From: a virus
Direction: 5' to 3' (one strand)
IMG/VR virus record: IMGVR_UViG_3300019776_000919
Location: 62,001-126,000 of that record
Length of the DNA stretch: 64,000 nt
Under the pieces are notes generated by a model, which was not told the origin of the DNA, made no database searches, and saw only the letters and a program-made list of their open reading frames with translations. The translations under genes were made by a program, and so were the position numbers. This document shows positions 1 to 62,238 of the stretch, one piece after another (the first letter of the stretch is position 1; each line of letters starts with the position of its first letter).

Positions 1-2127
1 TCCGTTTCACCCCAAGAGATGCCAACATCGCCTTCACAACCAATGGGTAATTGGAGCCAAGGAAATGCTTTCATCGGGTATTCATCCATGGTCCGATAAG
101 TTAGGTTAATAACTTCTGCTGCTTTTTCTATGGGGCACTCAATTTCTATCGAATCGTAGCTTGATTCAAAAATATTTTCATATTTTTATGGACTATATCA
201 TAATGTGTTTAATACCCAAGTACCAAACACATTCCGTGCGCTCTAGAGGTTTTACCACCCGGTCAGGGCTCCATACCTTAGTCTCTGAACCTTCCACCTA
301 TTCCTAGGCGGCTTGGCTGCTGATTATCCAATCTTTCTCTTTTTCAAACTATCACGTTTACTATTACTAATTACGTTGTAGTAGAGAAAGCTCTCAGGGG
401 TTTCCAGCAATTCACACGGTTTTCAGTTATTCCTCACGAAATAACGCCGCCTACGTTAACGGTACATGTACAAATAGCACCGAAAGGTTTAACTACTCTA
501 TTTACTTCTGTAAAAGTAGCCAAGCCGATAGTACTAGTTGCGCTTTGAATGATTACGTTTTGACTGTTGCGCAAAGAACCGTTATAAGCGGCTGTAGGCT
601 TGAAGCAATTATAAGTCCCGAACTGACGCTTGCGTTGGCCAAGCGGAGTAATACTGAACTGATTGTATAGTGCAAATTTATGAGCTTTTTCAATGTATTC
701 CTTTACTTTAGGGAAAGTGTTAAAGTACATTGCAATGAGCGTTTCAGCTTCCGATTTTTCCAGGTTAAGCTGCATTGCAATGCCTGCGATTGAAGATCCG
801 TATAAGCAGATACTCTATATGTTTCCATATAGTCTAGACTATACCATCATCCTTTTATCTGTGAATCGATAAAGGATGCTCGCCGTGTTATGGATAAATC
901 CATCCTAGTATCATCTGTTCTAGATGACCTATGAGTCGTTGAACCATTTATAACCATCCCTGGTTATTCTGGCTGCTGATTGCCATACCTGATTTCAGGG
1001 TTAGGGTTCCAGCAATTGAGCGAGTTTGCATACTTATGTTACCACAAGTAGGTACCGTAATCAATACTAAAAGTCAAAGTCTTGCTCAGCTGGCGCAACT
1101 CTTTATATTCCCTATATTTAGGATGACTGCTGTCTGACAACACAGCAATAATCTCTTCATAAGGAATCTTTCTCATGGCACTTGCAGAGAATGAATGGAA
1201 GTCCAATCCCTCTGCAATAGCTTTCAGCATAGCTGGCTCTTTGGATATGTTTGCTAGAACCTTGACTTCAGCAGAGCTAAAGTCAAAGCTAATAAACACA
1301 TACCCCTCCCTTACAGTATAACAAGTTCTTACGTTGTATCCGTGCCTTGCTCTTGGGAGCTGGGTCAGGTTAGGATCTGAACCGGTTATACGGAATGAAG
1401 AGGTGCCAAATTGATTGTAACTGGGATGAATTCGTCCGTCTCTTTTTACCCAGTCTTTGACGTACGTTTTAATGAACGTATTATGAACCGAGGAAATATC
1501 ACGGCGAACAGCCATATCAGCTAGGAACTGAAGCTTTTCATCTTTAGTTACGTATTTACCACCTAAAGGATCTAATCCTGCAAGAGTCAATAAGGCAACT
1601 CCATCAGTAGCAGGTTCACCACCTTTCGTAGTAAACGGTACTTCAAACCCTAGTTCTTCATACAAAAAGCTAGCTACTGCAGGGCCAGAATTTAAATCAA
1701 TTTTCTTCCCAATTTGAGAGAATATCTTATCTTCTAATTGAGCTATTTGCTCAACCATCTTTCTATCAAGGAATTGATTGCGGGGGATGGAATAACCCAT
1801 ACCTGCAATTTCCAAGTCGATAAGAAATTCATGAGCTGGTATTTCTAATTCCAAAAAGCTTTGAATTATAGGCGGAGCTTTCGAGTCCACTCTATTGCCC
1901 CGATCATCAAAATCGATAATCGGAGTTTCCATTACTAAATCTGGAAAAGTCTTGGCTAAAAGTTCAGACGTAGCAATGCAATCTATGCCTGCATAAGTAT
2001 AGAGTTTTTCTTCATCGAAATCTTCATACGTAAGTTTTTCTGAGGCGCTTACTTCTGATTTCTCTTTAGACTCGCTGTTTTCAGAATCGTCAAATAGTTC
2101 GTCAATCCAAATCAGTTGTGAACTCAT
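1..2127 (-). CDS. DNA polymerase I-type polymerase subunit, three exons, 3' end outside window
   Basis: Family A DNA polymerase, the phage replicase catalytic part. Exon 1 (2127 to about 1056) opens at an ATG overlapping the upstream stop (ATGA). It begins with an exonuclease motif III (Y45 xxx D49), then carries polymerase motif A (SFDFSSAEVK) and the start of motif B (RQLSKTLTFSIDYG). Exon 2 (about 800 to 459) resumes with SSIAGIAMQLN, which aligns at exactly the E. coli spacing after YG, and ends at FGAICTCTV. Exon 3 (159 to 1 and beyond) gives YDSIEIEC, so motif C reads VYDS instead of the usual VHDE. The two gaps hold group I intron cores. Without splicing, in-frame stops truncate the protein within motif B. 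Exonuclease motifs I and II lie in a separate gene at 2671-3963. Confidence 0.88.
160..458 (-). ncRNA. Group I intron 2 in the polymerase gene (299 nt, no ORF)
   Basis: On the minus strand the segment contains the ordered group I core elements: P-like GAATTGCTGGAAACCC, Q-like AATCAGCAGCCAAGC, R-like GTTCAGAGACTAA and S-like GATATAGTCC. The P7 pairing GACTA/TAGTC is present. The best junction leaves a U at the end of the 5' exon and a G as last intron base, and restores ACC GTC TAC GAT (TVYD). It lies inside polymerase motif C. No endonuclease frame is present. Confidence 0.88.
798..1055 (-). ncRNA. Group I intron 1 in the polymerase gene (about 257 nt, no ORF)
   Basis: Minus-strand core elements in order: CAATTGCTGGAACCC, CAATCAGCAGCCAG, GTTCAACGACTCA and GGTATAGTCTAG. 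Both boundaries carry ACGG (1055-1058 and 798-801), so the exact junction is ambiguous by four bases. Any of these cuts restores the O-helix reading DYGSSIAGIAMQLN. The insertion is inside motif B. Confidence 0.84.
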
Positions 2128-29731: not shown

Positions 29732-30280
29732 TGGTAGGCCGTGTTGGATTCGAACCAACGACCAAAGGATTCGTACCACTTCGACTTTCGCCGCCGTCTT
29801 TCGACGTTCGTGGTCTGGACTATGTCTTGACCATACTACCGTCGCAGGTTAGGTCCGTGCTGTTTAGTCTCTACACCTTTCGCCTTAGGGGAGGCGACTT
29901 GGCTCGGCATTAGCTTGGAATTGTATGAACACGTCAGGAGTTCAGGAAAGGGCGCACCACAATCCTTCAGTCCATGATCACTATTCATGCCCTTCTTTAG
30001 CTTTCGCCGAATTTAACACGATTCATCCCAAATCTCACAGTAGTTCGCATTGCATCGGATTAACCTATCCTCTGAGGGGAGGATGATTGAATTATGCCTT
30101 GTGAGCATATCAATTTATTTGCAATGTTACTATACCGGCTTTTGATTTAGTTTATACGCCTTTCGGTTGAGTCGTTACGCCATCCGGGCTGATGACTACC
30201 GCTCATTTTTCGTAGATGCACAATACTGAAAATGAGATTTACTATGAGTCCTCTGCTCTAACCATCTGAGCTAACGGCCC
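29732..30280 (-). tRNA. tRNA-Met/Ile2 (CAT) interrupted by a group I intron
   Basis: Exon 1 (30280-30244) is GGGCCGT acceptor, D arm, anticodon stem GAGGA and CTCAT. Exon 2 (29771-29732) continues AATCCTT, T arm with TTCGAAT, ACGGCCT, A, and encoded CCA. The join restores a normal 7-base loop CTCATAA. The intron lies right after anticodon base 36. Acceptor pair 1-72 is G-U, so it is not a normal initiator. CAT could be Met or lysidine-modified Ile2. Confidence 0.9.
29772..30243 (-). ncRNA. Group I intron in tRNA-CAT (472 nt, no ORF)
   Basis: Minus-strand core: P-like AAATTCGGCGAAAGCTAA, Q-like AATGCCGAGCCAAGTCGCC, R-like GTGTAGAGACTAAACAG and S-like AAGACATAGTCC. P3 (CGGC/GCCG) and P7 (GACTA/TAGTC) pair. 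The 5' exon ends in U and the intron ends in G. The core wording resembles cyanobacterial tRNA-Leu (IC3-type) introns more than the two polymerase introns. Confidence 0.88.
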
Positions 30281-36919: not shown

Positions 36920-36999
36920 GTTCTGCCTTTCGTGCAGTTGAGTGGTGGTGAAGGAAGATGGTAGGACGTACTGGATTCGAACCAGTGACCATCGGATTA

Positions 37000-37656
37000 C
37001 TTACTACTCCAGTTTTCACTGGCTGATTTTCATCATTGTAGTCTGGACTATATCATCACCTTCTGTCTTCACAGTTAAGGTGTCTTGCTCGTAGTCTCTG
37101 AGGACTCTCATAACGTCTAGGTAATCTGATAGCAAGTTTACCTTGCTATTCTGCCCGTTCTTAGGAGGATCGGCTCTCAGTGTCAAATGTGAACCTGTTG
37201 TTTTCAACAGCTCATCGTTTCTAATCCAAGCAATCTTGTCATCATCAACGCAGTAAACTGCATATATTTGACAATCTTTCATGTTGTATTGAAACCTATA
37301 ATTTGGCCCTGATTTCCAACCGCATACTGAATAAACCCCGTTTGTTTTAGTTACGGTTTTTACCTGTATGCCTATCAGCTTTGACTTTACTTCAAGCACT
37401 AAGTCTATTCTTGAGATATCACCGAGTTCGATGAATACTGAATATCCTAAGGCCAAAAGCTCAGTCGCTACTTTCATTTCTCCTAAATTACCTAATCGCT
37501 TAGTGTGCATAATCTTTTGGATTATACATCACAAGTTGCCTGCTGATTGACCAATCCTTTAGATTTTTACGACTGGGGTCGTACTAAAGGCTCTAAGGTT
37601 ATTCCAGCATATCGCAAGATTTTCATTCACATATTTCTATGTGACGCTTCCAATCA
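37000..37656 (-). ncRNA. Group I intron in tRNA-Lys (657 nt)
   Basis: Minus-strand P-like ATATGCTGGAATAACC and Q-like CAATCAGCAGGCAAC lie upstream of the ORF. R-like TCAGAGACTACGAG and S-like GATGATATAGTCCAG lie inside the end of the ORF. P7 pairs GACTA/TAGTC. The last intron base is G. Confidence 0.9.
37016..37510 (-). CDS. Intron-encoded PD-(D/E)XK homing endonuclease, I-Ssp6803I-like
   Basis: 164 aa inside the tRNA-Lys intron. Nuclease core: E11 (GNLGEMKVA), D36 (SRIDLVLE), Q49 and K51 (GIQVKT). This is the PD-(D/E)XK layout of I-Ssp6803I, the homing endonuclease of a cyanobacterial tRNA-fMet intron; the residue numbers appear to coincide with what I recall for it. It would cut intronless tRNA-Lys genes and promote intron homing. 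The C-terminal 45 residues are encoded by sequence that also forms the P7 part of the ribozyme, and the stop is 16 bases before the intron end. Confidence 0.85.
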   Translation of the reverse strand: MHTKRLGNLGEMKVATELLALGYSVFIELGDISRIDLVLEVKSKLIGIQVKTVTKTNGVYSVCGWKSGPNYRFQYNMKDCQIYAVYCVDDDKIAWIRNDELLKTTGSHLTLRADPPKNGQNSKVNLLSDYLDVMRVLRDYEQDTLTVKTEGDDIVQTTMMKISQ

Positions 37657-37737
37657 AAAGTCCGGTGCTCTACCAACTGAGCTAACGTCCCAAATTTGCA
37701 ACCTAGTATTTTACACTAGATTCTAATCGAAATCAAA

Positions 37738-39136: not shown

Positions 39137-39250
39137 CCTCGTCAAGGTGGAATCAAACCACCATTATGGAGTTGGCATTGCCGTTACGAACAATCGTCGT
39201 GTTTGGCACGTCCTAGTGCTCCATTGTAATGCCATTATACTATCGACGAG
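39137..39250 (-). tRNA. tRNA-like RNA B: Gly-type body with 47-nt anticodon loop
   Basis: Perfect acceptor CTCGTCG/TGACGAG, Gly-like D arm (AGTATAATGGCATTACA), T arm GTGG-TTTGATT-CCAC, and discriminator G with no encoded CCA. Anticodon stem ATGGAG/CTCCAT is perfect, but it closes 47 nt with three small hairpins in a row: CGTG/CACG, ACGA/TCGT and GGC/GCC. No 7-base loop or anticodon can be defined. Confidence 0.6.
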
Positions 39251-39369: not shown

Positions 39370-40170
39370 GCAAAGCTCACATACCGTTACCAACAAAGTA
39401 GAACCAAAGGTCCGTGTCATGGTTTTTGCAAATGTCTGCGTGGAGCATGGCCCAGTCCAAGTTCAGACGTGATTGTGGTGATGCGTAGACGTTCAAAAGG
39501 GAAAGCATGTGAACTCCTAACTGTATGAAAGACAAGTCAAGCAATACCTTATCCAAGTGGCCTTATTGAGACTTTTCCAGTAAGAGGGACTCTCCTGGTA
39601 CGGTAGTCAAAAGGGGACTCAAACAAGTGCCGAAGGATTTACCCTGGGAGCCAAAATCACTTTCTTCACTCAAGTTTACCGCGAATAGACTTGATCTATT
39701 AGAACAAAGACTTGTCTTTAATACAGTCAAGGTGGATTGGAAATTACGCAAAAGGTGGTGAACCTCAGTCATCAATTTATAGTTGCGACCTATTGTTGCG
39801 TCTGGGATTAATAACCCGCTGTGTTTCGTGGCCACAAAGAGCACAGTTGAGAGTTACATGATCAGGTTCAGCCAACATTGAATTCTTCAGGTTCACCACC
39901 TTTTGCGCAAATTTAAGGTGCCCCTCCTTTGAGGCACGGTACTCTTACAAAGCAAGGCTCCTTGCGAACAAGGATCTTGGGAGGGGCATCTGAACTAGAA
40001 GGAAACTCCTAGTTCAGAACTTCGGTTCAGGCTGCGAGAGCCTGGACATAGCTGCTGTCATTGGCAGTTACTTGTTTACCTACATGTTTAACGAGCATAC
40101 AGGCTGGCTCGTGTTGTAGTCTAAGATACTAATCTGTCAATCGAATGCCTAGTCACCCCCATTGAACAGC
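39370..40170. ncRNA. Candidate large non-coding RNA within the tRNA array (about 0.8 kb)
   Basis: The longest gene-free stretch in the island. It has a 19-bp stem at 39747-39765/39889-39907, TGCCCCTCC/GGAGGGGCA (39919/39980), TGAACTAG/CTAGTTCA (39991/40009), a GAAC-TTCG-GTTC tetraloop hairpin (40018-40029), CAGGCT/AGCCTG and ACGAGC/GCTCGT. Size, density of stems and position among phage tRNAs recall GOLLD/ROOL-type RNAs, but identity is not shown. Confidence 0.5.
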
Positions 40171-40174
40171 TTAA

Positions 40175-40313
40175 TGGTGGAGGTGCCCGGAATCGAACCG
40201 GGGTCTTGCCAGTTGTTCTCTCTTTCTTTCAGATGAGCGAACTCATCACACAACAATTCTTTTAAAGGTCCAACTTCTACCTTTTTACTACTACATAACC
40301 GCAGGTGATACCT
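40175..40313 (-). tRNA. tRNA-like RNA C: T arm and acceptor with expanded body
   Basis: The 3' part is canonical: CCCGG-TTCGATT-CCGGG, CACCTCC, A, encoded CCA. The best 5' partner is GAGGGTG (one A-C mismatch and one G-U). Instead of normal arms there are AGGT/ACCT, AAAGGT/ACCTTT and a GTTGT/ACAAC stem enclosing a GATGAG-TTCG-CTCATC hairpin. The 3' end resembles tmRNA, but the segment is far too short and no tag frame is seen. Confidence 0.45.
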
Positions 40314-61353: not shown

Positions 61354-62238
61354 TTATTCGACGGTGTCAATATCACCATCAGCATCGCCGTTATAAATCG
61401 GCATGCGAAGCATTTTATGAGCAAGACCCATGGTTTCTACTTGGATAAGTCTACCTATCCAATCCTTGGGATTGTTCCAAGCGTCTATACGTTCATTCCT
61501 AGAGAACCCCGATCCGACCTTAGCGACTTGCCTGCCAGAAGCATCACAGACTACTACAGCACCCATAGATTGTTTAGGATTCCCATCCTTGTCTATTTCT
61601 TGAATGATGTCAGTTATTTTTAAATTGTAATGTTCTTTGTGCTTTACTTTATATCGAACATTAACATCTTCTGGCTCTGTCAAAGAAGTAATAATAACCC
61701 CTTCTTGACCACCGGCTTTAGTAGAACGTATCAGAGAGTGTATGTCTGAAGGGTTAGAGTATGTTTTTGCAGCGTAGATAAGATCAGGTTTACCGACAAT
61801 GGATTCTACTCTTTTCAAATGATCCATTTTATCTTTATAAGTAGGGAAGTCAGGGTTTATTACGTTGTGTAAAACCGCACGGACTGGACCTATTTTGTTT
61901 TGTGTATCTATTGATCTGGCAGGTAAGGAATTTAGAATACCAGAAACTATCCTATGAGACTCGACATTGGCTTTATTAAAACCCGTATGTATTAATTCTA
62001 CGTTATATACGTGACCCGCAAGTTCCGGATATTTCTTATCTGTTAATTGAGGAAGTTGAAGGGTTCGGTCAGGATAGCCTCCTTTAACAGAAGGACGACG
62101 TGATATAAAAGATAAACTTCCGTCACTAGACACAGGCATAAAGAAATTAGCCCCGTCATATTTGATTGTAGCAACGGGGTTTCTAATTGACATCCAAGAT
62201 GTCTCATCTATATCCTTGTATTTAGAACGGGAGTACAT
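61354..62238 (-). CDS. ATP-dependent DNA (or RNA) ligase
   Basis: 294 aa. Nucleotidyltransferase motif I IKYDGAN with the predicted adenylated Lys26, motif III-like NVELIHTG, motif IV QEGVIIT, motif V YKVKHKEHYNLKI, then an OB-like domain (GAVVVCDASGRQVAKVG...IGRLIQVE). A compact ligase of a size seen in phages. DNA versus RNA substrate cannot be settled from motifs alone. Confidence 0.84.
   Translation of the reverse strand: MYSRSKYKDIDETSWMSIRNPVATIKYDGANFFMPVSSDGSLSFISRRPSVKGGYPDRTLQLPQLTDKKYPELAGHVYNVELIHTGFNKANVESHRIVSGILNSLPARSIDTQNKIGPVRAVLHNVINPDFPTYKDKMDHLKRVESIVGKPDLIYAAKTYSNPSDIHSLIRSTKAGGQEGVIITSLTEPEDVNVRYKVKHKEHYNLKITDIIQEIDKDGNPKQSMGAVVVCDASGRQVAKVGSGFSRNERIDAWNNPKDWIGRLIQVETMGLAHKMLRMPIYNGDADGDIDTVE

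Follow-up and report, generated by a model that had tools for sequence, protein, structure and literature searches.

The window, a stretch of 64,000 nucleotides (positions 62,001 to 126,000) from a 169,713-base IMG/VR virus record whose genes match DNA polymerase, primase, helicase, portal-like and RNA polymerase beta-like families in PHROGs, carries on its minus strand a tRNA-Lys(UUU) gene split within the anticodon. The features of the locus, 5′ to 3′ on that strand and followed by a second interrupted tRNA gene of the same phage, are:

37657..37691, minus: tRNA-Lys(UUU) 5′ exon, up to U35 (joined exons fold as a complete tRNA-Lys)
37000..37656, minus: group I intron, 657 nt, between U35 and U36, final base G (exon joining; partial RF00028 matches)
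37647..37655, minus: internal guide GAUUGGAAG (P1 and P10), intron nt 2-10 (9/9 pairs with the joined exons CUUU/UAAUC)
37627..37644, minus: P2 hairpin with GAAA loop (fold)
37614..37619, minus: P3 5′ strand, partner 37083-37088 (paired, with letters changed, in 4/4 Lys-type introns)
37605..37609, minus: P4 5′ strand, partner 37541-37545 (Lys-type intron comparison)
37556..37590, minus: P5a/P5b extension (Lys-type comparison and fold)
37499..37535, minus: P6/P6a hairpin (fold -12.8 kcal/mol, z -4.0)
37016..37510, minus: PD-(D/E)XK homing endonuclease ORF, 164 codons (PF11645; 2ost profile; Foldseek)
37092..37096, minus: P7 5′ strand GACUA, codons 139-140 (paired in 24/24 introns)
37083..37088, minus: P3 3′ strand (Lys-type intron comparison)
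37057..37082, minus: P8 hairpin, within the ORF frame (fold and alignment of introns)
37046..37050, minus: P7 3′ strand UAGUC, within the ORF frame (intron alignment)
37003..37042, minus: P9 with P9.1 (37024-37035) and P9.2 (37009-37022) (fold)
36959..36999, minus: tRNA-Lys(UUU) 3′ exon, from U36, CCA encoded (joined-exon fold)
29732..30280, minus: tRNA(CAU), second interrupted tRNA of the window phage (RF00028 46.2 bits, E 8.8e-12)

When the segment 37656..37000 was removed, the joined exons gave a complete 76-nt tRNA-Lys(UUU), CCA included, with its stems paired, and the interval 37000-37656 given by the original prediction proved to be exact. The predicted tRNA-Lys identity stood as well, both by the joined exons and by comparison with other phages: 15 phage records had a DNA match to the tRNA-Lys/intron stretch, 4 of them to the 5′ half of the intron and 11 to the 5′ exon, the latter at 89–97% identity and comprising 10 genes annotated as tRNA-Lys and 1 without annotation. 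Other phages carry intronless tRNA-Lys genes with 5′ halves near-identical to the window 5′ exon; no intronless close relative of the window phage was found, and the insertion event itself is not visible here. ARAGORN, run without introns, made no tRNA call at the interrupted site.

The assignment of the insertion to the group I introns was borne out by the guide, the terminal G and the core helices P2–P9, all of which were found. Membership is indicated by the core helices P3–P9, with the guanosine-site helix P7 among them, and the hallmark of the group is present too, as the guide pairs with the 5′ exon via a U.G at the splice site and the intron ends in a G after GUAA. The guide GAUUGGAAG forms a G.U on both sides of the exon junction, and a 9/9 complement (G.U allowed), present in the first 14 nt of the intron, occurred in 23 of 20,000 random 14-mers from the window; the pairing of the guide with the joined exons exceeds chance. 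The helices present in the window intron are P2, P3, P4, P5, P5a/b, P6, P7, P8, P9, P9.1 and P9.2, and the 3′ half of the intron had a folding z of -4.2. In the four Lys-type introns (the window, L154, the tRNA-Lys(CUU) intron of L091, and L073), every pair of P3, P4, P5, P5a, P7, P8 and P9 forms in 4/4, a count that is confirmatory because the helices were found by eye first and counted after, and for which three of the motif positions reported are first occurrences elsewhere. Pairs with changed letters across the four were seen in P3, P4, P5, P5a and P7; P3, for example, reads UCUUGC/GCAAGA in the window, UCGAGC/GCUUGA in L154, UUUGGC/GCCAAA in L091 and CUGUAC/GUACAG in L073. All five pairs of P7 are formed in 24/24 aligned tRNA introns, the last pair being A-U in 22 and U-A in 2. 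This global alignment, from which L122 was left out as a likely chance tRNA, misplaces P3–P5 between subtypes, hence many unpaired cells in those helices.

The endonuclease ORF begins in P6, where its AUG (37510-37508) is paired within the 3′ strand of the P6 hairpin, crosses P7, P3′, P8 and P9, and ends in P9.2, which contains its stop codon UGA (37018-37016). Both P7 strands lie inside the ORF, in agreement with the original prediction that the frame runs through this helix. The proposed I-Ssp6803I type of PD-(D/E)XK endonuclease was recovered at the level of family, profile and fold. PF11645 matched residues 1-130 (E 2.9e-21, cut-off passed), and a profile of eight relatives compared with solved structures matched 2ost (I-Ssp6803I) with E 1.9e-20, the next match having E 0.21, while the single window protein gave E 0.0083 against 2ost. 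An AlphaFold2 model built from ten sequences (mean pLDDT 83, pTM 0.77) had 2ost_A as its best Foldseek match (TM 0.73, E 1.5e-10), and 2ost was the sole solved homologue of the window protein found. The four residues pointed out beforehand, E11, D36, Q49 and K51, are present with codons starting at 37480, 37405, 37366 and 37360; in I-Ssp6803I numbering, we take E11, D36 and the Q-x-K to be active-site residues. D36, Q49 and K51 are invariant in 10/10 aligned members, and E11 is kept in the window protein, L091 and L231 and replaced by F in L154 and by Y in L156. The loss of nuclease residues in relatives, named at the outset as an argument against the prediction, was therefore seen for E11 in L154 and L156 but not for D36, Q49 and K51, which hold in 5/5 members of the phage clade.

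A search for related loci with the single protein returned 4 stretches and no confirmed viral relative, and a profile search (alignment A2) returned 14 viral loci. The ORF lies in a tRNA-Lys group I intron in two of them (L154, and L155, which is L091), in short inserts in two (L157, which is EFP01, and L161), directly before a tRNA-Lys in one (L156) and in neither an intron nor an insert in the remaining nine. A pattern for the Lys-type P5/P4 region matched 15 stretches, several of which are not tRNA introns, and gave a further ORF-bearing tRNA-Lys intron, L231, whose tRNA-Lys was confirmed by exon joining, as well as the ORF-less tRNA-Lys introns L073, L229 and L230. Three viral contigs, L154, L091 and L231, have the same arrangement as the window, namely a tRNA-Lys group I intron whose P6 holds a PF11645-type ORF, with 40–45% protein identity. 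Apart from the missing E11, L154 differs from the window in its insertion between positions 34 and 35, whereas L091 differs in its tRNA-Lys(CUU) and in an ORF that stops in P7. At L091 3464-4625, two adjoining tRNA-Lys genes each have a group I intron, one ORF-less and one with the endonuclease.

Bacterial and archaeal relatives of the endonuclease amounted to 22 loci, with the ORF in interrupted tRNA-fMet-like genes in 4 (L177, L181, L182, L185) and in short inserts in 2 (L169, L170). None of the 22 lies in a tRNA-Lys, the bacterial gene in which the original prediction had proposed to look for the same insertion. In the bacterial introns L177, L181 and L182 the ORF stands at the intron 5′ end, ahead of the ribozyme core, unlike that of the window, which is located in P6 and extends into the 3′ half. 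In a tree of 46 proteins, from which L185 (59 aa) fell out and which preceded the finding of L231, the window protein grouped with L091, L154 and L156 (support 98/85); a separate clade (100/98), made up of the bacterial proteins and an I-Ssp6803I fragment, excludes it. The window intron thus stands outside the bacterial tRNA-fMet/I-Ssp6803I lineage both by clade and by having its ORF in P6 and not before the core. Given the separate clades and the different position of the ORF, the pairing looks independent, and the endonuclease family likely joined tRNA group I introns twice, separately, with the deep branches left open.

The identity of the gene and its state of preservation can each be read differently. 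In its intron mode, applied to the whole window, ARAGORN called the gene tRNA-Gln(UUG) and gave it an intron of 655 nt. We rejected this boundary, since the intron would end in T and not in G and the guide pairing would be lost; together with the phage matches to the 5′ exon, of which all but the unannotated eleventh are annotated as tRNA-Lys, this makes a tRNA-Gln extremely improbable. A decayed intron, with an inactive ribozyme or nuclease lodged in a dead tRNA copy, would fit the RF00028 result, one match in each half of the intron (23.4 and 20.1 bits, E 0.0012 and 0.012) below the gathering score of 50, and the fact that E11 is already gone in two relatives. We attribute the weak score to the ORF, which splits the core: in L073 and L091, introns that have no ORF reach 67.9 and 73.5, both above the gathering score. 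Both tRNA halves, the core helices, the four catalytic residues and the open frame are all intact, and we consider decay very unlikely. As judged from its sequence, the locus is very probably a phage tRNA-Lys(UUU) gene whose anticodon is occupied by a mobile group I intron with a homing endonuclease.

The further claim, that selection acts on the same sequence as protein and as ribozyme, was not supported in that form, as the two overlap only past the nuclease domain and introns lacking the ORF specify the same amino acids there. The match to PF11645 stops at residue 130 and P7 starts at residue 138-139; a helix at 133-146 is confidently modelled at least to residue 140, and the model has pLDDT < 50 at residues 148-164. 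The tail frame of the ORF-less L073 reads VLRDYTYST, then a stop, that of the ORF-less L229 is open for 25 codons, with a tail resembling that of L154, and the ORF of L091 ends at a UAA overlapping P7. The tail stays open for 24 codons or more in 3/4 ORF-bearing versus 5/23 ORF-less introns (one-sided Fisher 0.065, the rows being related; L122 is again left out, and L230 is absent, having no AGAGAC motif). Because ORF-less introns share the tail frame and residues, ribozyme selection alone accounts for the conserved tail, protein selection being neither shown nor excluded. True dual coding, in which tail residues 139-164 (from P7–P9) would themselves be selected as protein, perhaps as an arm that binds RNA or DNA, is favoured by a frame open to P9.2 in three of the four ORF-bearing introns, as compared with 24 or more open codons in 5/23 ORF-less ones, and by the confident part of the helix. 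The conserved residues of the tail are, however, those that the ribozyme fixes, and the similar open tail of L229, the stop within P7 in L091 and the low pLDDT from residue 148 also speak against dual coding, which we regard as unlikely.

For the mobile intron, the following course can be proposed. The intron RNA would fold and a guanosine would attack after U35; U35 would then attack after the terminal G, giving mature tRNA-Lys. Unspliced RNA would allow translation of the ORF into the I-Ssp6803I-type PD-(D/E)XK endonuclease, which would cut intronless tRNA-Lys genes of co-infecting phages, with repair copying the intron in. I-Ssp6803I itself cuts the intronless tRNA gene and works as a tetramer. 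Translation across P7–P9 and ribozyme folding should be mutually exclusive on one molecule, and the AUG paired in the P6 hairpin would keep ribosomes from the folded ribozyme. As for its origin, the endonuclease gene was probably inserted into a tRNA-Lys intron that had no ORF, at its P6 loop, in favour of which count the tRNA-Lys introns without an ORF (L073, L229, L230); the last ~25 codons would be ribozyme sequence, and protein only by chance of frame.

The second interrupted tRNA of the window phage, tRNA(CAU), has an ORF-less group I intron of 472 nt (30243-29772) between U36 and A37. A generic group I pattern matched at least 120 stretches in viral contigs, the viral status being IMG/VR's own classing, and 122 places among the matches listed lay beside an intact tRNA (79), inside a predicted interrupted tRNA (25) or in neither position (18). 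Group I introns are predicted in at least 25 places (L016-L135), in tRNA-Asn, Gln, Met, Arg, Leu, Thr and Lys and mostly short and ORF-less, with the reservation that the ARAGORN intron mode makes identity errors and that chance calls may be included. With a narrower pattern, 21 stretches were obtained, of which ARAGORN called 17 as tRNA-Asn, and Rfam applied to ten predicted interrupted-tRNA loci reached the RF00028 cut-off in two (L073, L091). The window itself also contains group I introns at 169-467 and 815-1073 (minus; 78.5 bits each), beside DNA polymerase fragments, and a permuted tmRNA at 40027-40231 (minus; RF04321, 81.5 bits) with the predicted tag ANDSSYVQALAA. A tRNA-Gly(GCC)-like gene at 39137-39250 (minus) can be folded only if a 40-nt insert following C32 is allowed; Rfam gave no tRNA match for it and BLAST no match in phages, and it may therefore be degenerate or a chance occurrence.

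Related endonuclease genes also occur in anticodon-loop inserts of ~454-490 nt in intact phage tRNAs (L004/L199, which is Enterococcus phage EFP01, L192, L193, L194, L196, L197, L213, L161) and perhaps, in the same kind of insert, at L169, L170, L195, L204, L222 and L223. The clearest inserts have about 29-35 nt before the ORF and 8-14 nt after it, a length that leaves no room for a group I ribozyme; none of five such loci reached the Rfam RF00028 cut-off, a result of little weight as 8/10 interrupted-tRNA loci were likewise below it. For EFP01, an intact tRNA-Asn with identical exons stands at the insert site in 4/4 fetched relatives, and the insert is therefore 463 nt long and placed between U36 and A37. 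The tRNA-Asp(GUC) called as its host by ARAGORN was rejected, since the empty site shows tRNA-Asn(GUU), and six like inserts were by analogy read as also lying in tRNA-Asn. In 7/7 distinct tRNA-Asn-type inserts the 5′ end pairs best with its own 3′ end when compared with all others, and in the same seven the two ends come together in a long covarying hairpin, by which the anticodon stem would be extended. The hairpins, that of L213 included, share an internal loop of UGAC opposite CUGAU or UUGAU.

Free-standing members of the family were observed beside tRNA genes (L005, L006, L007, L008, L009, L010, L156), some overlapping the first bases of the next tRNA. The function of phrog_5018 is listed as unknown, and the copy of FKP10 is annotated as a methyltransferase. 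GOLLD and ROOL RNAs (L008 556-924 and L004 2430-3016) were found in the same phage tRNA regions as endonuclease genes. A tentative view, possible rather than probable, is that the PF11645/phrog_5018 endonucleases parasitise the anticodon loops of phage tRNA genes and come in three formats (within P6 of a group I intron, free beside tRNA genes, and in ribozyme-less inserts) and that the inserts are a new class of non-group-I tRNA intron in bacterial viruses.

ORF-less group I introns exist in bacterial tRNA genes, for example in tRNA-Leu(UAA); like the window intron they place a group I core in the anticodon loop, but they have no ORF and another insertion site. Other phage group I introns, which carry HNH or GIY-YIG endonucleases, are mobile like that of the window, but lie in protein genes (td, DNA polymerase, terminase). 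The I-Ssp6803I system (PDB 2ost), for which a table in PMC1995217 gives a 655-nt intron in the tRNA-fMet of Synechocystis PCC 6803 and an endonuclease of 150 aa, resembles the window in its PD-(D/E)XK enzyme of similar length and in a tRNA group I intron of near-equal size, and differs in that the window host is a phage, the gene is tRNA-Lys and the protein belongs to another clade. In its available text, a 2014 review describes all phage introns then seen as lying in protein genes (PMC3984707), and a phage tRNA-Stop interrupted by 2.5 kb is termed possibly an artefact in the part accessible of PMC5746245. The available portions of PMC11878797 and PMC7886860 describe phage introns without mention of tRNA introns, and those of PMC13096335, PMC3943268, PMC9610469 and PMC3706429 contain nothing on phage tRNA introns. 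No publication dealing with a group I intron in a tRNA gene of a phage was recognisable among titles and abstract openings, in a body of literature outside which most subscription papers and all preprints lie.

In phages, group I introns of tRNA genes seem to be common, yet almost unreported in the searchable literature, and a tRNA intron with its own endonuclease, known from bacteria, has apparently hardly been noticed in phages. Against the position, as it stands in the available text of PMC3984707, that phage introns avoid tRNA genes, the window phage has two, and at least 25 further ones are predicted. Set against the ORF-bearing introns, their ORF-less siblings provide a clean case of a homing gene entering a ribozyme. 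Phage tRNAs can substitute host tRNAs cut by defence nucleases. A nuclease gene in the anticodon loop breaks, and through splicing would restore, the very spot that defence nucleases attack.
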